Below are positions 51,603-64,000 of a DNA stretch of 64,000 nt, in pieces. Each line of letters opens with the position of its first letter. Position 1 is the first letter of the stretch. Source of the stretch: Candidatus Methylospira mobilis (lineage in GTDB: Bacteria > Pseudomonadota > Gammaproteobacteria > Methylococcales > Methylococcaceae). A program made the translations under genes and the position numbers. Below the pieces are notes generated by a model, which was given only the letters and a program-made list of their open reading frames with translations, was not told where the DNA came from and did no database searches. The stretch covers positions 4,527,389-4,591,388 of the forward strand of contig NZ_CP044205.1 in NCBI RefSeq assembly GCF_009498235.1, written 5' to 3'.

Positions 51603-52706
51603 ATGAGTGTCCCTTTACGTCAACAAATCAGCGTAGCATCCTACCTGTTCAAGCAAAAAATCAAAGGCGTCAAACGCTACCCGTTAGTGCTCATGCTGGA
51701 ACCGTTGTTCCGTTGCAATCTGGCCTGCGCGGGCTGCGGCAAAATCGATTATCCGGACGATATACTGAACAAGCGGCTCAGCGTGGAAGAGTGTCTTGCC
51801 GCAGTGGACGAGTGCGGCGCGCCGATAGTTTCGATAGCAGGCGGCGAGCCGCTGCTGCACAAGGAGCTGCCGCAAGTGGTTGAGGGCATGATCGCGCGCA
51901 AAAAATATGTCTATCTGTGTACCAACGCGCTGTTGCTGAAAAAGCGCATGGATGATTACAAGCCTTCCCCCTATTTTAACTTTTCGATACATCTGGACGG
52001 CACGCGCGAGCGTCATGACGCTTCCGTTTGCCAGGAAGGTGTATTTGACAAAGCGATCGAAGTGATCAAGATGGCATTGGAGCGCGGTTTCCGCGTCACG
52101 GTGAACTGTACTCTGTTTCAGGGCGAAACGCCCGAGGAAGTTGCTGAGTTTCTCGACTTTACCAAGTCGCTGGGTGTCGAGGCGGTGACCATCGCGCCCG
52201 GTTTCAGTTACGAGCATGCGCCGGCCCAGGATGTTTTCATCAAGTTGCGCGAAGGCAGAGAGCTGTTCCGCAAGGTTTTCCAGATCGGTAAAAAGCGTAA
52301 ATGGAATCTGAATCATTCCAGTCTTTATCTCGACTACCTGGCCGGCAATCAGGATTACCATTGCACGCCATGGGGAAATCCCACGCGCAATGTTTTCGGC
52401 TGGCAAAAACCTTGTTACCTGCTGGCCGACGAAGGGAACGCTGCTTCGTTCAAGGCGCTGCTCGAAGAAACTCACTGGGAAAAATACGGCAACACCAAAA
52501 ACCCCAAATGCGCGAACTGCATGGCGCATTGCGGCTTTGAAGCAACGGCGGTGGAAGACGCGATTAGCAACCCGTGGAAAGCGGTATGGACAGGAATTAC
52601 CGGTCCGCGCACCGAAGGCCCGATGGCGCCTGAACCGGTACACGAGTGGGAACACAACTCCACCCCCGCCGGCCATCCGCATTTCCAGATACAGGCGGTG
52701 GATTAG
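51603..52706 (+). CDS. hpnH: Hopanoid biosynthesis radical SAM protein HpnH (adenosylhopane synthase)
   Basis: 367 residues from ATG 51603 (AGGAGA upstream). The radical SAM cluster motif CNLACAGC lies at 38-45 (Cys38, Cys42, Cys45), followed by the SAM-binding SIAGGEPLLHKELPQVVEGM. The C-terminal part has extra cysteines (NPKCANCMAHCGFEATAVED), as is usual for HpnH. The enzyme adds a 5'-deoxyadenosyl radical to diploptene, making adenosylhopane, the first step of the extended side chain. It is the first gene of the plus-strand hopanoid operon, 10 bp ahead of hpnB. Confidence 0.95.
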   Translation: MSVPLRQQISVASYLFKQKIKGVKRYPLVLMLEPLFRCNLACAGCGKIDYPDDILNKRLSVEECLAAVDECGAPIVSIAGGEPLLHKELPQVVEGMIARKKYVYLCTNALLLKKRMDDYKPSPYFNFSIHLDGTRERHDASVCQEGVFDKAIEVIKMALERGFRVTVNCTLFQGETPEEVAEFLDFTKSLGVEAVTIAPGFSYEHAPAQDVFIKLREGRELFRKVFQIGKKRKWNLNHSSLYLDYLAGNQDYHCTPWGNPTRNVFGWQKPCYLLADEGNAASFKALLEETHWEKYGNTKNPKCANCMAHCGFEATAVEDAISNPWKAVWTGITGPRTEGPMAPEPVHEWEHNSTPAGHPHFQIQAVD

Positions 52707-52716
52707 TTTTGCCGCC

Positions 52717-53856
52717 ATGACCGAAACATCCGCATTGATCATCGTAACGCTGGCGGCTTTTTCCTGGATGGTCGTTCTGCTGCTGCCATGGCGGCCGTGG
52801 TTCAATACCGAAGCGCTGGAACCTTCGAAAATTGCCGACGGGTTCGATTTGTCCGAGTTGACCGTGGTGATACCGGCGCGCAACGAAGCTGATGTCATCA
52901 CGGAAACGTTGCAAGGGCTGGCGGCGCAGGGTACCGGGCTGCGCGTGCTGGTGGTGGACGACAACTCCACCGACGCGACCGCGGAAACCGTGCGAACTAC
53001 CGGCGGTATTTCCGCAGAATTGATCAGCGGTCAGCCTCTCCCCGACGGCTGGAGCGGTAAGCTCTGGGCGCTGGATCAAGGTGTAAGGCGCGTGGATACG
53101 CGATATATCTTGCTGCTGGATGCGGATATCCTGCTAAAACCGGGCATGCTTACCGGAATGGTGAAAAAAATGCGCGCGCATCAGCTTCACTTTCTGTCCA
53201 TCATGGCGACCCTGCGCATGCACACGCTGTGGGAAAAACTGCTGATGCCCGCGTTCATTTACTTCTTCAAACTAATGTATCCGTTCCGGCTGGCCAACTC
53301 TCCCTCGCGCCATTTCTCGGCTGCAGCGGGCGGTTGTATTTTGCTGGAAACACGGTTGCTGAAAGAGATCGACGGATTCACCAGCCTGCGTGACCGGCTT
53401 ATCGACGACTGTTCTCTTGCGCATAAAATCAAACAGGCGGGATATCGCACCTGGATCGGACAATCGCACTCGGTGATCAGTCTACGCGGCTACGACACGC
53501 TCAGCCCAATATGGGAGATGGTCGCGCGCACTGCATACACGCAATTGCACTATTCGATTTTGTGGCTGGCGTTCTGCACCTTAAGCCTGGTGCTGGTATT
53601 CTGGGTTCCGCTCGCGGGCTTGGCCTCAACAAACTCCACCATCTTTACATTGGCGCTTTACGCCTGGCTGGGCATGACGGGCAGCTATCTGCCCACTTTG
53701 CGATATTACCGTCAACATCCGCTGTGGGCGCTGACATTGCCGATGATAGCCGGACTGTATATGGCGATGACCTGGACGTCGGCGATACGTTATTGGCGCG
53801 GCGAACGCAGCCGCTGGAAAAACCGCAGCTACGCCACGCCGGCGCCGCATGACTGA
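52717..53856 (+). CDS. hpnB: Hopene-associated glycosyltransferase HpnB
   Basis: 379 residues from ATG 52717 (the frame is open further inside hpnH). An N-terminal membrane helix (LIIVTLAAFSWMVVLLLPW) is followed by a family 2 glycosyltransferase domain: LTVVIPARNEADVITETLQG, VDDNSTD, the metal-binding LLLDADI and RDRLIDDCSLAHKIKQAGYR. Three or more C-terminal membrane helices follow. HpnB proteins are assigned to hopanoid clusters by context; the exact sugar transfer is not established. It follows hpnH by 10 bp and overlaps the glycosidase gene by 8 bp. Confidence 0.9.
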   Translation: MTETSALIIVTLAAFSWMVVLLLPWRPWFNTEALEPSKIADGFDLSELTVVIPARNEADVITETLQGLAAQGTGLRVLVVDDNSTDATAETVRTTGGISAELISGQPLPDGWSGKLWALDQGVRRVDTRYILLLDADILLKPGMLTGMVKKMRAHQLHFLSIMATLRMHTLWEKLLMPAFIYFFKLMYPFRLANSPSRHFSAAAGGCILLETRLLKEIDGFTSLRDRLIDDCSLAHKIKQAGYRTWIGQSHSVISLRGYDTLSPIWEMVARTAYTQLHYSILWLAFCTLSLVLVFWVPLAGLASTNSTIFTLALYAWLGMTGSYLPTLRYYRQHPLWALTLPMIAGLYMAMTWTSAIRYWRGERSRWKNRSYATPAPHD

Positions 53857-55204
53857 TGTCGCTCAATTCCCACCCGGCTTTCTGTGGGGCGCGGCGACCT
53901 CAGCTTATCAGATCGAAGGCTCGCCGCTCGCCGACGGCGCCGGCCCCAGTAACTGGCATTTGTTCTCGCATCGCGACGGCACGATAAGCGATGCAAGCAA
54001 CGGCGACATTGCCTGCGACCATTACCGGCGTTTTGGCGAAGACATCGGTCTCATGCGGCAGCTGGGCTTACAGGCCTATCGCTTCAGCCTGTCCTGGAGC
54101 CGCATATTTCCGGCGGGTACCGGTAAAATCAATCAGAAAGGTCTGGATTTCTATCGGCGCCTGTTAAACGCGCTGCTCGATGCCGGCATACAGCCCTATC
54201 CGACGCTTTTTCATTGGGATCTCCCTGCCGCGCTGGACGAACGCGGCGGCTGGACCAACAGCGACTGCGCTCACTGGTTAGCCGATTATGCGCAAACCGT
54301 GTTTGGCGCGCTGGGCGGGCTGGCGGAAAACTGGACGACATTGAACGAGCCCTGGGTTATTGCCGACGCCGGTTTTCTGGACGGCATTCATGCGCCAGGA
54401 CACCGGTCTTTGCAGGAAACGCCGCTGGTTGCGCATAACCTGTTGCGCGCGCATGCGCTGGCGGTCCAGGCGTTCCGCGCGGAAAGCAATGGTCGTATCG
54501 GCATCGTCGTCAACATCGAGCCGAAATATGCCGCATCGGACCAACGCGGCGATCAGACGGCTGCCGAACGCGCGCACGCCTACATGAATCGGCAGTATCT
54601 GGACCCGTTGTTCCTGGGCGGCTACCCGGATGAATTGGCGGAAGTTTTTGGCGATTACTGGCCGAGGCATAACGAAGCCGACATGCGGCTGCTGCGTACG
54701 CCGTTCGATTTCCTGGGCGTCAATTACTACACGCGTTCGGTTAATCGCGCAGACGGCAACAACCTGCCGGTTCGAGCCTCGCCGGTAGCGCAGCCGGGTG
54801 CGGAATATACGGAAATGGGCTGGGAAGTGTTTCCCCGAGGCCTCAAGGAAACCCTGCTGTGGATCAAGCGGCGCTATGGGGATATCCCGTTATACGTAAC
54901 GGAAAACGGAGCGGCTTTTAAGGATCCGCCGCTAACCGCGCAAGGCCGTCTTCACGACGCAAGACGCGTCGAGTATTACCGAACCCATTTGAACGCATGC
55001 CGCGAAGCAATCGGCAGCGGCGTTAATCTCAAAGGCTATTTTGCCTGGTCGCTGTTCGATAACTTTGAATGGAGTTACGGCTACAGCAAACGTTTCGGGC
55101 TGATTCATGTCGATTTCGATACGCAAAAGCGTATTTTTAAAGACAGCGCCTATTTTTTTAGCGAGGCCATCCTTTCAAATGGCGCGAGTATTGATTCCGA
55201 TTGA
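53849..55204 (+). CDS. Family GH1 beta-glucosidase
   Basis: 451 residues, the usual length of a GH1 TIM barrel. The acid/base motif TLNEPW lies near residue 165 and the nucleophile motif YVTENG near 353; FLWGAATSAYQIEGSPLADG at the N-terminus and WSLFDNFEWSYGYSKRFGLI at the C-terminus complete the substrate pocket. There is no signal peptide, so it acts in the cytoplasm. The start overlaps the end of hpnB by 8 bp, which makes it part of the hopanoid operon. In that setting it might trim sugars from a glycosylated hopanoid or recycle sugar donors, but ordinary beta-glucoside use is equally possible. Confidence 0.93.
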   Translation: MTDVAQFPPGFLWGAATSAYQIEGSPLADGAGPSNWHLFSHRDGTISDASNGDIACDHYRRFGEDIGLMRQLGLQAYRFSLSWSRIFPAGTGKINQKGLDFYRRLLNALLDAGIQPYPTLFHWDLPAALDERGGWTNSDCAHWLADYAQTVFGALGGLAENWTTLNEPWVIADAGFLDGIHAPGHRSLQETPLVAHNLLRAHALAVQAFRAESNGRIGIVVNIEPKYAASDQRGDQTAAERAHAYMNRQYLDPLFLGGYPDELAEVFGDYWPRHNEADMRLLRTPFDFLGVNYYTRSVNRADGNNLPVRASPVAQPGAEYTEMGWEVFPRGLKETLLWIKRRYGDIPLYVTENGAAFKDPPLTAQGRLHDARRVEYYRTHLNACREAIGSGVNLKGYFAWSLFDNFEWSYGYSKRFGLIHVDFDTQKRIFKDSAYFFSEAILSNGASIDSD

Positions 55205-55208
55205 TACT

Positions 55209-56000
55209 TCAGCGATACACTTCCCAGGTTTCCAGCAGTAATTGATAAGGCGCGGAGGAAACGCTGACCTCGCCTCGGAACGGGTTATCGACCGCTGCCG
55301 TTAAAAACACAACCAGCCCGGAAAAAACGGCCATAACGGCGGTCAAGACCACATGTGTGCGGAAGTGGGAAAAGTGATAGAAGTAAGTAACGAACATACT
55401 CAGTATCGCTCCGCTGAAAACGACTATCCATAATACTGCCGGCAATCCGCTGTCCACGGAGTCCAGACGCATGCGACGCGCTTCGACCAAGCGGTTGTAA
55501 GCTGCGAAGCCTTGCGATTGCGCAACTTTATCCCGCGCGGTGTCAGGCCTCAGCTCGAGCAGGGTATTTTGCAGGCCCAGCAGAATTTGCCTGCCGCCAT
55601 GTACCCGCTGCCCTTTTGACTGCGCGGGCCATTCCGAGTCGACTACGAAATGAACATAGGTTTTCAACCGGTTCTGCAGCTCTGTTTTATACGGTTCGGG
55701 ATAGCTGCTGATATCCTGATAAAAAACGCTGATCGCGCTTGCTTCGCGAGAAACCAGGGTGGAAGCGCTGTTGTAATCCTGCCATGTAGCGACCGCAACC
55801 AATCCAAGCAGCAAGCGAAAAAGTCCGCCGACATTGGCATTGTAGCCATTGACGCCGCCTCTGTTGCTCAGATCGGAAAGGCCGAAATGATTCTTGATGT
55901 AGCCGCGCGACAGATACAGCCCGCCAATGGAAACGGCCACAAAAAGCGTGACGATCGAAACGCCCAGCTGCCAGGTCGGTATATCGTAAATCCAAAACAT
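55209..56000 (-). CDS. DUF4239 membrane protein, copy 1 of 3
   Basis: 263 residues. Two N-terminal membrane helices lie around 8-28 and 58-75 (LFRLLLGLVAVATW), a soluble helical middle contains VSREASAISVFYQDISSYPE and DSEWPAQSKGQ, and two C-terminal helices follow (LPAVLWIVVFSGAILSMFVT and TAVMAVFSGLVVFLTAAVDN). The ending AAVDNPFRGEVSVSSAPYQL is shared by all three copies. DUF4239 proteins resemble bestrophin-type channels in layout, but their function is unknown. The gene is 18 bp downstream of copy 2 and converges with the GH1 gene. Confidence 0.82.
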   Translation of the reverse strand: MFWIYDIPTWQLGVSIVTLFVAVSIGGLYLSRGYIKNHFGLSDLSNRGGVNGYNANVGGLFRLLLGLVAVATWQDYNSASTLVSREASAISVFYQDISSYPEPYKTELQNRLKTYVHFVVDSEWPAQSKGQRVHGGRQILLGLQNTLLELRPDTARDKVAQSQGFAAYNRLVEARRMRLDSVDSGLPAVLWIVVFSGAILSMFVTYFYHFSHFRTHVVLTAVMAVFSGLVVFLTAAVDNPFRGEVSVSSAPYQLLLETWEVYR

Positions 56001-56018
56001 TACGCTCTAAACCTCTTT

Positions 56019-56876
56019 CTAATGATCAGCAATCGACGCTCCAGCCGATCGCTGCGCCTCATCGGCGGACGGAGCCTTCGACACGGAATCGGATGCCCAG
56101 GTTTCCAGTAAACGATGGTAGGCGTCAGGAGACACGCTAACCGCGCCTCTGAATGGATTATCGACCGATGCGGCCAGAAACACCATTAATCCAGCCAGCA
56201 CCGCCAGTGCGGTAGTCATCAGCAAATGACTGCGGAAATGGGTGAAATGATAAAAATAGCTAATAAGCACACTCAGTGCCGCACCCGAAATCACGATGAT
56301 CCATAATACGACCGGCAAACCGTCATCGACCGCGTCCAAGCGCATTCTATGCGCCTCTATCAGTTTATTGTACGCTTGAAATGCTTCCGCCATTATCAGC
56401 TGCTTTCGGCTGTCTCCGAGGTCTACGTCCAGCAGCGACTGCTGCAGGTCGAGTAAAATTTTTCTGCCGCCGTAGAGCAGCTCCCCATGCGCCTGGGCAG
56501 GCCATTCGTTGTTAATTATATAATTCACATAAGATTTTATAGTTTCACGCATTTGCGTTCGCTGCGGCTCGGCATAGCTGCCGACATCGACATACAATGC
56601 GCCGATCGCGGCTTCTTCGCGCGATACCAGTCTGGACGCATTGTCGTAGTATTGCCAGGAAGCTACAATGACCAAGCCCAGCAATAGTCCATACAAACTG
56701 GTAATGCCGCCAAAATACCCGCTGACGGCTTCATTCATGCTCTCAGAGGTATTAAATTTCCTTTTGATATAATCGTTTGATAAAAGCAGACCACCTACAG
56801 AAAACGCTACAAAAATAGCAACCGTGGCCAGGCCGAACAGCCAAACCGGCAAATCGTAAATCCAGTAAATCGTCAT
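56019..56876 (-). CDS. DUF4239 membrane protein, copy 2 of 3
   Basis: 285 residues from ATG 56876 (MTIYWIYDLPVWLFGLATVA). The frame is open to 56921, but that part runs into the MITE-like element and does not match the other copies. The family landmarks are present: YGLLLGLVIVASWQYYDNAS, REEAAIGALYVDVGSYAEPQ, NEWPAQAHGE, LDAVDDGLPVVLWIIVISGA and ASVDNPFRGAVSVSPDAYHR. A hydrophilic C-terminal tail of about 25 residues (SDSVSKAPSADEAQRSAGAS) is unique to this copy. It is cotranscribed with copy 1. Confidence 0.82.
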   Translation of the reverse strand: MTIYWIYDLPVWLFGLATVAIFVAFSVGGLLLSNDYIKRKFNTSESMNEAVSGYFGGITSLYGLLLGLVIVASWQYYDNASRLVSREEAAIGALYVDVGSYAEPQRTQMRETIKSYVNYIINNEWPAQAHGELLYGGRKILLDLQQSLLDVDLGDSRKQLIMAEAFQAYNKLIEAHRMRLDAVDDGLPVVLWIIVISGAALSVLISYFYHFTHFRSHLLMTTALAVLAGLMVFLAASVDNPFRGAVSVSPDAYHRLLETWASDSVSKAPSADEAQRSAGASIADH

Positions 56877-56906
56877 GATTGTTTTGAAGGTAGACGTAAA
56901 TCGATT

Positions 56907-57112
56907 GTAACTATTCAGCATACCTGCTGGAGAGGAAGAGATGTGGGTGTGGGGCGGGCGAGACCTTCTGCGCCCATTGATGGGTGCAGAGAGCTTCCAG
57001 GCACGGATTTGCAGCGTCGTTAAAATTCCAACATGCTTCCGCGCGTTTCGACTGGCTTACCTCATTTCCGGCTGCTTCGGTCATGACTCAAAAGCACTCA
57101 CTGAATAGTTAC
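56907..57112. repeat. MITE-like element between DUF4239 copies 2 and 3
   Basis: The 16-bp ends GATTGTAACTATTCAG (56903-56918) and CTGAATAGTTACAATC (57101-57116) are exact inverse copies and enclose about 200 bp with no coding capacity. The same GTAACTATTCAG end occurs at 22967-23074. The interior differs from that copy, so only the ends are shared. It separates two copies of a tandem gene family, so it probably inserted after the duplications. Confidence 0.65.
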
Positions 57113-57145
57113 AATCAATTTATAAAATTTAAATTCTGTTTCTAA

Positions 57146-57934
57146 TTATGGATTTGTCGACCAGGATTCCAGCATCATCCGGTATAAATCAGGAGATATG
57201 CTGACTTCACCCCGAAACGGATTGTCGACTGCGGCAATCAAAAAAACCATTATTCCGGTGAAAAGAGCGAACTTACCGGTCAGGATCAAGTGTACTTTAA
57301 AACTGGGGAAATGAAAAAAATAGGTTGTGGCTATGCTGACAACCGAGCCGATCAACACTACATACCAAAGCGGGGCCGGCAGGCCGTCGTCAACGGCGTC
57401 CAGACGCATGCGGCGCGCGTTTAATACATTATTAAGGGCATGAAATACTTCCGCCTGCAACACCTGCTGATTTATGGTTTTAGGCTCAAACGTAAATATC
57501 TCATGATGCAGGCGATGCAGATGCCGCATGCCGTCGTGCGCAACCTGGCCGCGCATCTGCGCGGGCCACTCCGTATCGATAACCGTCGTTAGATAGGTTT
57601 TCAGAATTTCCTGCATGTTTTTTGCATAGGGCGGGGGGTAGCTGCTCACGTCAAGATAAAGAGAGCCGACTTCCGCTGCTTCGCGCGTCGCCAAACTGGC
57701 TGCATTATTAAAAGCCTGCCAAGTGGCGACCGCTACAAACCCCAGCAAAAGACCCAAAACAGCGCCGATACCGCTAATATACCCGCAAACCGCATTATTG
57801 GTTTCGTTCGAAAGCATTAATCTTTCGCGGATAAATCCGTGCGACAGCAGCAATCCGCCCAGGGAAACGAATAAAAAAACCGCTACAGCCAAAACCCCCA
57901 ATAACCATGTCGGTATATCGTAGATCCAGTACAT
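57146..57934 (-). CDS. DUF4239 membrane protein, copy 3 of 3
   Basis: 262 residues. It begins MYWIYDIPTWLLGVLAVAVF like the other copies and shares VLGLLLGFVAVATWQAFNNA, REAAEVGSLYLDVSSYPPPY, DTEWPAQMRGQ, RRMRLDAVDDGLPAPLWYVV and AAVDNPFRGEVSISPDLYRM. Four membrane helices are in the same places. It is the most upstream of the three on the minus strand. The element at 56907-57112 lies between it and copy 2, so it may now be transcribed separately. Confidence 0.82.
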   Translation of the reverse strand: MYWIYDIPTWLLGVLAVAVFLFVSLGGLLLSHGFIRERLMLSNETNNAVCGYISGIGAVLGLLLGFVAVATWQAFNNAASLATREAAEVGSLYLDVSSYPPPYAKNMQEILKTYLTTVIDTEWPAQMRGQVAHDGMRHLHRLHHEIFTFEPKTINQQVLQAEVFHALNNVLNARRMRLDAVDDGLPAPLWYVVLIGSVVSIATTYFFHFPSFKVHLILTGKFALFTGIMVFLIAAVDNPFRGEVSISPDLYRMMLESWSTNP

Positions 57935-62693: not shown

Positions 62694-63209
62694 CTACACG
62701 GTTGAGAAAAGATTGAGTATACCGCGCATTAAATCGATCGGCGCAGGCGGACAGCCGTTTATCACTATATCTACCGGTATTATATTGTTTATCGCGCCAC
62801 GGCTGGCATAAGATATGCCGAATTCGCCGCCGCAGGCGCCGCAATCACCTACGGCAATCACCCACTTTGGATTGGCCATCGCTTCATAAGTACGCCGCAA
62901 CGCGGCTTCCATGTGGCGGGACACCGGCCCTGTCGCCATCAGAATATCGGCATGGCGCGGCGAGGCTACAAAATGTACGCCGTAGCGTTCAATATCGTAG
63001 TATACGTTGTTGAGCGCGTGTATTTCCAGCTCGCAGCCGTTGCAGGACCCGGCATCCACCTGCCGTATGGCGACGCTGCCCTGGAAGCTTTTGTCGATGA
63101 CCGCTTTCAGGGTCTGCCCGGCGTGTATAACCGACTGGTCTTCCGGCAGCTTCAGCAATTTCTCGGTCAACATGCCGGTTTTGATTATTTTTCCGTAAAG
63201 ACTCAACAT
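62694..63209 (-). CDS. Small (NuoB/HyfI-like) subunit of a group-4-hydrogenase-like complex
   Basis: 171 residues from ATG 63209. All four cysteines for the proximal 4Fe-4S cluster can be placed: VDAGSCNGCELEIHALNN (Cys56, Cys59), GDCGACGG (Cys123, with an extra Cys126) and NGCPPAPIDL (Cys153). The sequence GSCNGCELEIHALN is typical of HyfI/HycG and other energy-converting hydrogenase small subunits and differs from respiratory NuoB. The protein faces the cytoplasm on a membrane arm. The large subunit gene lies upstream on the same strand after 168 bp. Confidence 0.85.
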   Translation of the reverse strand: MLSLYGKIIKTGMLTEKLLKLPEDQSVIHAGQTLKAVIDKSFQGSVAIRQVDAGSCNGCELEIHALNNVYYDIERYGVHFVASPRHADILMATGPVSRHMEAALRRTYEAMANPKWVIAVGDCGACGGEFGISYASRGAINNIIPVDIVINGCPPAPIDLMRGILNLFSTV

Positions 63210-63377
63210 GGGAACCCCATATGCATGTGTTGATATATCTGATATCGATGACTTACTAGGCTTCCCTGTTCTGCGTCCACTCACCGGTGGTTTTCGGCGG
63301 AAAACTGCCTTGGCACGCCCGATTAAATACGCAACCAGGGTTTATTAATGCGGCAACCGACTGCGGCCGGCCTGTTT

Positions 63378-64000
63378 TTATAAATCGTGACCCGAATAGG
63401 ATGCGTTAACCGATTTGTTGCATACCGGGAAATCGGGGACGATATTGCCCAGAACCAGCTTTTCCAGCGCTGGCCAGTTGACTGCGCTGGGATCGCGCGG
63501 CCAATAACGGCTCACGGCGTTATCGCCATCGAAGCGGACAAAGCACAATACCTCGCCGCGCCAGCTCTCGATTGCGGCAAAGCCTTGAGCGCCTGCGGCG
63601 GGCGCTTGCCAGGACAGGGATACATCGCCGTAAGGCATTGTATCCAGTAAAGCTTCGATCAGATGAAAACTTTCGCGCAATTCCTTGTAACGCACCCAGA
63701 AGCGGGAAGCTACGTCGCCCTGACTTTCAACCGGTACACGAACCTGCAAACTGTCATAGGGCGCATAGGGTATGTGAGCGCGCGCATCGAAAGTCTGACC
63801 GCTGGCGCGTCCGACAAAGCCCAGCGCTCCCAGCGCATCGGCCAGTTCCACGGACAACATGCCGGCGCCGATAAAACGATCTTCCAAAGAAGAGTTATAG
63901 TCGAGTATGGTCAGCAACTCGTTGACTTCCCCTCGTATCGTGGTGACGGATTCGCGCATCAACCTGTTTGTTTGCGACGAAATATCCGAAATTACGCCGC
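63378..64000 (-). CDS. C-terminal part of a HyfG/NuoD-like large subunit lacking the C-terminal NiFe ligands
   Basis: At least 207 residues; the frame is open to the right edge, so the gene starts outside the window. The visible part aligns with the C-terminal half of HycE/HyfG/NuoD: RFIGAGMLSVELADALGALG, GRASGQTFDARAHIPYAPYD, WRGEVLCFVRFDGDN and NWPALEKLVLGNIVPDFPV. In [NiFe] hydrogenases the end reads DPCxxC and binds nickel. Here the matching residues are VNASYSGHD, with Ser and Gly in place of both cysteines. The protein therefore cannot hold a normal NiFe site and is more like the hydrogenase-related (Ehr) complexes. The N-terminal CxxC motif is outside the window. Confidence 0.82.
   Translation of the reverse strand, partial: GVISDISSQTNRLMRESVTTIRGEVNELLTILDYNSSLEDRFIGAGMLSVELADALGALGFVGRASGQTFDARAHIPYAPYDSLQVRVPVESQGDVASRFWVRYKELRESFHLIEALLDTMPYGDVSLSWQAPAAGAQGFAAIESWRGEVLCFVRFDGDNAVSRYWPRDPSAVNWPALEKLVLGNIVPDFPVCNKSVNASYSGHDL

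Follow-up and report, generated by a model that had tools for sequence, protein, structure and literature searches.

The window analyzed here, a 64,000-nucleotide stretch of the single-contig Candidatus Methylospira mobilis genome (positions 4527389-4591388 of 4,703,534 bases), ends in what is on balance best read as an Ehr/Hyq-type, six-subunit, complex-I-like redox ion pump that works without hydrogen chemistry and that, in the methanotroph order Methylococcales, is tied to a SulP anion transporter. Judged from its genes, the complex is real, intact and of an already known kind (Ehr/Hyq), and by its defining motifs it is no hydrogenase; the new part is a gene-neighborhood lead, to SulP and a two-component system, in this branch.

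The minus-strand sequence at 63378-64000, with an ORF at 63378-63998 that is open at the window end, is the 3' part of a HyfG/HycE-like large subunit gene, a fusion of NuoC and NuoD. The start of the gene is found 1006 bases past the right-hand end of the window, and the full-length gene (L004:2766-4394, minus strand) encodes 542 aa with zero internal stops, comprising a NuoC-like and then a NiFe-hydrogenase/NuoD-like domain (PF00329, PF00374, PF00346). Among solved structures, the closest in sequence is the formate hydrogenlyase subunit HycE from E. coli (7z0s_E, E 3.6e-61), followed by MBH (6cfw_L) and then by complex I subunits. An earlier note on this DNA had described a group-4-hydrogenase-like large subunit without C-terminal nickel ligands, and alignment with HycE bears this out: the C-terminus NASYSGHDL (residues 534-542; codons at 63381-63407, minus strand, computed from the full gene, with the stop codon directly 3' at 63378-63380) aligns with DPCYSC, and both copies of the gene in this genome read NASYSG at the former nickel motif, where hydrogenase rows carry (D/E)xCxxC, such as DPCxxC. 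The N-terminal CxxC of group 4 [NiFe] hydrogenases, which the same note had singled out for checking in extended sequence, is likewise absent. The window gene reads RVSGDCTVAH versus RICGVCSVAH or RVCGICGFAH in hydrogenase rows, and the two copies carry RVSGDC and RVSGDA, the first ligand Cys being replaced by Ser and the second position being Cys in the window gene and Ala in the second copy.

This loss can be followed across a wider set of relatives. A relatives search and genome matches gave 121 loci, from which 7 duplicates (among them L024, a duplicate of L045) were removed and 13 were set aside (L029-L036, L038, L056-L058 and L078; 12 for carrying CxxC or grouping with CxxC rows, and L038 as a fragment), leaving 101 loci and, as one locus has two, 102 large subunits. 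At the four nickel-ligand positions, one ligand Cys is retained in 3 of the 102 (the window gene, L136 and L137) and two in none, versus four of four in all 12 set-aside CxxC rows; the missing CxxC pairs among the 102 are partly a matter of selection, since CxxC rows were set aside before the count. The residue counts that follow, at these and nearby positions, are free of such selection. Asp248, in the loop of the former first CxxC, is invariant (102/102), Ser246 is found in 97/102, and position 249 is Ser in 57, Thr in 38 (together 95/102), Ala in 5, Met in 1 and Cys in 1, the window gene; at the C-terminus, Asn534 is conserved in 101, Ser536 in 95, and Gly539 and Asp541 in all 102. Because the motif-less pattern recurs in 102 large subunits, CxxC rows having previously been set aside, it cannot reasonably be put down to a sequencing error. 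All 102 terminate three residues after Gly539, and we rejected a missing C-terminal extension as a mark of Ehr because 10 of the 12 CxxC rows also stop three residues past the motif.

The complex I residue that we take to be the quinone-binding Tyr of NuoD falls in the column of Gly247, with the His of the neighboring loop kept as His194 in the alignment; a complex-I-like quinone site is thus not conserved as such. A predicted structure of a relative (L024, 519 aa, mean pLDDT 78.4) was set aside as uninformative on the pocket of the rebuilt site, residues 503-519, which hold the motif, scoring below 50; the fold of this model matches HycE first and NuoCD second.

The large subunit is encoded by the G gene within an intact operon of six genes (hyfB-C-E-F-G-I) in the gene order of Hyq, with homologues of HyfF, HyfE, HyfC and HyfB upstream on the same strand and the small subunit downstream within the window. 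Beyond the operon come a RimO/MiaB-type gene and ftsK at one end and dus at the other. The same genome has a second complete B-C-E-F-G-I operon at about 3.747-3.755 Mb, whose large and small subunits are 54% and 56% identical to those of the first, and all six genes have open frames in both copies. Neither operon contains the NuoE, F, G and I modules of complex I, and the genome carries a separate Nuo. The HyfI/HycG/NuoB-like small subunit is called as a minus-strand ORF of 196 aa from GTG (62694-63284), and the conserved start in the alignment with the second copy suggests that translation may begin from a Met at about 63209. As the earlier note had also observed, it keeps its iron-sulfur cysteines: the first [4Fe-4S] pair C81-x-x-C84 (CNGC, 63033-63044), the third cysteine C148 (in GDC, 62841-62843) and the fourth, C178 (in GCPP, 62751-62753), all on the minus strand, are Cys in 98/98 sequences, consistent with the proximal cluster of Ehr complexes. 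The antiporter-like and NuoH-like membrane subunits that characterize Ehr are present in both operons (PF00361 twice, PF00146 and a HyfE-like subunit). Across 94 sequences of B, 99 of F, 97 of C and 97 of E, their charged residues vary little or not at all, with Glu135, Lys224 and Lys303 of HyfF found in 99/99; in the antiporter-like subunits of complex I, such residues function in ion transfer.

Elsewhere in this part of the genome, hypA, hypB and a NiFe-large-subunit relative, presumably HupK-like, lie at L004:17576-19971, starting about 8 kb upstream of hyfB, and further hydrogenase large-subunit matches occur at 4.63 and 4.64 Mb; true hydrogenase genes therefore lie near the Ehr operon but outside it. 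The window also holds three adjacent Bestrophin-like (PF14023) genes at 55209-57934 and, in a row at 51603-55204, a Radical SAM protein with DUF3463 (which we take to be HpnH-like), a glycosyltransferase and a GH1 glycosidase, a set suggestive of a cluster for hopanoid or lipid modification.

A tree, a check that the earlier note had called for, places the complex outside true hydrogenases. It was built in a quick IQ-TREE run with SH-aLRT support only, from the NuoD part of 77 large subunits after removal of the two motif stretches (341 columns). In it 67 CxxC-less rows form one clade (SH-aLRT 96; support is 83 when the divergent second copy of L027 is included as a 68th row), outside which stand the 8 CxxC rows. 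The nearest rows to this clade are the CxxC-bearing L056-L058, from three genomes of the same family (joint clade 100); the placing of three long branches, those of the genome's own NuoCD, the second copy of L027 and L078, is unsure. The window subunit belongs to a 21-row set (99), 15 of them SulP-linked, while the second copy groups with L046-L048, elsewhere among the rows from what we infer to be methanotrophs. At the threshold used, matches occur in 28 of 38 genomes of the family, two of which (G027 and G029) have the hydrogenase type only, and in 122 of 251 genomes and 39 of 48 genera of the order, or 120 of 251 genomes minus G027 and G029. Matches also occur in 51/377 genomes of the class and in 78/398 of the phylum, the latter including ordinary hydrogenases. 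Both the Ehr and the CxxC-bearing type are carried by G024 and G030. In L111 and L118, G alone is recognized; the other operon genes may be absent, may have diverged or may have escaped ORF calling. A Rhodoferax MAG has a second, divergent B-C-F-G-I set opposite its Ehr operon (L027:13539-20882), the G of which is 31% identical and reads VGDSS and DLSYCG. At L025/L052, a record titled Methyloversatilis universalis duplicates the stretch from G007, a genome assigned to the same genus as the Methylocaldum genome G006, and the title is probably wrong.

The genes around the operon speak to its electron partner. The earlier note had proposed that the complex couples a reaction other than that of hydrogenases to ion pumping, like the Ehr complexes, and that in a methanotroph it might link formate or ferredoxin oxidation to energy conservation. 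With the nickel site absent and the antiporter-like subunits intact, the first part remains the natural reading of the genes; the second gains no support from the neighboring genes. No soluble electron-input module (NuoEFG, HyfA/H, formate dehydrogenase) is part of the operon; neither operon of this genome contains a formate dehydrogenase gene or a HyfA/HyfH-like ferredoxin gene, the 2x[4Fe-4S] subunit of group 4 hydrogenases, and the associated formate dehydrogenase of formate hydrogenlyase is missing from both operons and the 101 loci. A 2x[4Fe-4S] ferredoxin-like ORF was found in 0 of the 101 Ehr loci (stretches of about 9 kb on either side, shorter at contig ends), whereas in the set-aside loci, which served as a positive control, the same pattern matched 9 of 13. 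The one molybdopterin-oxidoreductase match in the 101 loci (L080) is closest to the NuoG-like protein beside this genome's Nuo genes. That formate or ferredoxin oxidation nevertheless feeds the complex, as in formate hydrogenlyase or in the formate dehydrogenase-Ehr arrangement proposed for Margulisbacteria, is thus unlikely, even though the large subunit is homologous to HycE and, in the available excerpts, proposals of this sort have been published for Acidithiobacillus ferrooxidans and Margulisbacteria (PMC2621215, PMC6349859). An absent neighboring gene is compatible with a partner encoded elsewhere, and two PF00384 oxidoreductases besides NuoG do exist far away in the genome.

What does accompany the complex is a SulP anion transporter (PF00916), which adjoins or sits inside the operon in 26 of the 101 loci: 25 of the 44 from the order and 1 of the 57 from outside it (L074, in a distant clade). 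The linked transporters are all of a single SulP type, sharing 53-100% identity with the query set, on the same strand and within about 330 bases of the operon or inside it, and lie before hyfB in 23 loci and between hyfF and hyfG in 3 (L041, L045, L051), the last of which additionally has a 200-aa SulP piece before hyfB. The linkage thus occurs in two positions and two distant clades, and on the tree the label requires 6 changes, or at least 4 counting starred branches only. The solved structures closest to this SulP are those of SLC26Dg (5da0) and of a cyanobacterial SulP (6ki1), which we take to be BicA. The count of linked loci leaves out two distant SulP types (23-28% identity) found downstream in L105 and L134, and a SulP lying 5 kb downstream in L086. 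It also leaves out a 109-aa ORF between F and G (L040:8726-9052), possibly a SulP remnant, which BLAST clustering places with SulP but which gives neither a Pfam match nor a tblastn match at 1e-15. Further companions are a DUF2490 gene, beside the operon in 13/101 loci (5 checked with Pfam), and a sensor kinase with an NtrC-type regulator, which follow the operon in several loci; a response regulator 56-70% identical to that beside this genome's SulP is found in 11/101.

Neither operon of this genome has a SulP beside it, although the window large subunit belongs to the SulP-linked clade. Among its three PF00916 genes, one is of the linked type (66% identity to the L074 SulP) and lies at 366 kb, directly followed by a kinase and regulator of the type that accompanies the complex elsewhere, so that parts that travel with the complex in other genomes are present here but split. 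Nor is the tie exclusive: of the order's 251 genomes, 201 have a SulP of the linked type but just 120 the complex, at least four genomes (G002, G007, G009, G023) have the complex with no SulP match at the threshold used, and 75 of the 101 loci have no linked SulP, a few because contigs end.

In the literature searched, we found no report of a SulP linkage to this complex. The excerpted report on Methylococcus models a SulP beside carbonic anhydrase as a bicarbonate importer, a model its authors call speculative (PMC11423575). The tie to SulP and a sigma-54-type two-component system suggests that in the methanotroph order the complex serves, or responds to, the uptake of inorganic anions such as bicarbonate. 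It is possible, though less likely than not, that in gammaproteobacterial methanotrophs the hydrogenase-derived pump, the BicA-like SulP, the DUF2490 envelope protein and the two-component system together form a redox-powered bicarbonate uptake machine, in which the complex would make a local ion gradient at its rebuilt Asp/Ser/Asn pocket and SulP would spend it.

The same SulP evidence could be read without electron transfer, the complex being a non-redox or indirectly driven ion or inorganic-carbon machine like DAB or the cyanobacterial CO2-hydrating NDH-1, SulP carrying the anion and the cluster serving structure only. Intact antiporter-like subunits, the lack of electron-input genes, the SulP in or beside 26/101 operons and the excerpted Methylococcus model (PMC11423575) would all suit such a machine. 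We nonetheless regard it as quite unlikely: the cluster cysteines kept in 98/98 sequences argue for redox use, most loci outside the order are without SulP, and a beta-carbonic anhydrase like this genome's five own sequences, which served as queries, was found beside the operon in 0 of 101 loci.

A third alternative is that the complex has remained a hydrogenase and relies on an unorthodox active site in which the four classical cysteines play no part. This has been claimed for Hyq of Azorhizobium caulinodans, which, in the excerpts available, lacks both CxxC motifs yet has been assigned roles in taking up and evolving H2 on the strength of deletion mutants: loss of the NifA-regulated hyqRBCEFGI operon slows diazotrophic growth and alters both activities (PMC2650096, PMC3357923). 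If correct, these assignments contradict the loss of hydrogen chemistry favored here. Within the order, nifH is present in 80 of the 120 complex-bearing genomes versus 51 of the 131 without the complex (80/40/51/80, odds ratio 3.1, p 1.5e-5, uncorrected for kinship, completeness and genome size), and it is present in this genome; this co-occurrence keeps the nitrogen-fixation connection of Azorhizobium open. On the other side, 40 of the 120 lack nifH at the threshold used, and the Hyq authors themselves, in the accessible part of their paper, regard the presence of a NiFe site in HyqG as uncertain or even unlikely (PMC3357923). Matched by spacing, the presumed counterparts of the first two of the three conserved Hyq cysteines are Cys in 85 and 82 of the 102 large subunits, and that of the third in only 15. 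On these grounds a surviving hydrogenase seems very unlikely. For the family as a whole, finally, a decaying, functionless remnant is already refuted and leaves next to no probability: the nickel site and, in this genome, the SulP linkage have been lost, but the six genes are open in both copies, invariant residues persist in all subunits over about 100 loci, and 120 of 251 genomes of the order carry the complex.

The favored reading, a redox ion pump of the Ehr/Hyq kind, would work as follows. An electron carrier would hand electrons singly to the small-subunit cluster, and these would react with a substrate, most economically taken to be a quinone, within the large-subunit pocket that formerly held NiFe and that may be lined by Ser246, the invariant Asp248, Ser/Thr249, Asn534 and Ser536. 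The resulting conformational change would drive H+ or Na+ through HyfC, HyfF and HyfB, and the complex could also run in reverse, an ion gradient pushing electrons uphill. In the methanotroph order, the SulP and two-component tie would give it a role in, or a response to, bicarbonate uptake. A complete respiratory-type complex that is usually named a hydrogenase is present in nearly half of the order's 251 genomes, the linkage offers a first concrete, testable lead on its job in these bacteria, Asp248 is a residue to mutate, and the finding bears on the claim that Hyq makes hydrogen without nickel ligands.

The name Ehr was reportedly introduced by Marreiros et al. 2013. Ehr complexes without nickel ligands, their function given as unknown, are described in the excerpted reports on Margulisbacteria and comammox Nitrospira (PMC6349859, PMC10284858), and they share with the complex studied here a relation to group 4 hydrogenases, antiporter-like subunits and the absence of CxxC motifs. 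They differ in that no formate dehydrogenase or NuoEF-like genes lie nearby here, and the SulP and two-component linkage of the methanotroph order goes unmentioned for them in those excerpts. The same six-gene set, hyfBCEFGI, is present in Acidithiobacillus ferrooxidans and Nitrospira (PMC7735108, PMC2621215, PMC5596200, each as excerpted), with one Nitrospira having a CODH adjoining it that is not seen here. Its naming varies: the available text on At. ferrooxidans classes the large subunit as non-hydrogenase (PMC7735108), whereas the genome papers on Nitrospira (PMC5596200, in part) and Methylocaldum (PMC10974252) report these genes as hydrogenase-4.

E. coli formate hydrogenlyase (HycE/HycG) and Hyf (7z0s) provide the closest solved structure by sequence and fold and have homologous membrane subunits, but their NiFe ligands, ferredoxin-like subunits and formate dehydrogenase are absent here. 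Closer to home, L056-L058 (L056:391-8153, L057:3799-11388, L058:2127-9845), from the same family, have the same B-C-E-F-G-I set, also without a ferredoxin-like ORF or 2x[4Fe-4S] subunit; unlike the window complex, they keep ICGVC and ELCYSC intact and are therefore, from these motifs, probably true hydrogenases, the nearest to the Ehr clade. The likeness to Azorhizobium Hyq, as far as the available portions of the two papers go (PMC2650096, PMC3357923), extends to the same six structural genes in the same order, a large subunit without both CxxC motifs, a small subunit with four Cys and the lack of ferredoxin-type genes. It stops short of the XRE-type hyqR, as no ORF of at least 80 aa was called between either operon here and its upstream neighbors (XRE-type genes do precede the operon in some relatives). 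As to the NifA control of Hyq, a sigma-54 promoter pattern scan before both operons here gave match counts at chance level. One of Hyq's three conserved cysteines is not conserved in the wider family, and it is for Hyq that hydrogen activity has been claimed (PMC2650096, PMC3357923, in the same portions).
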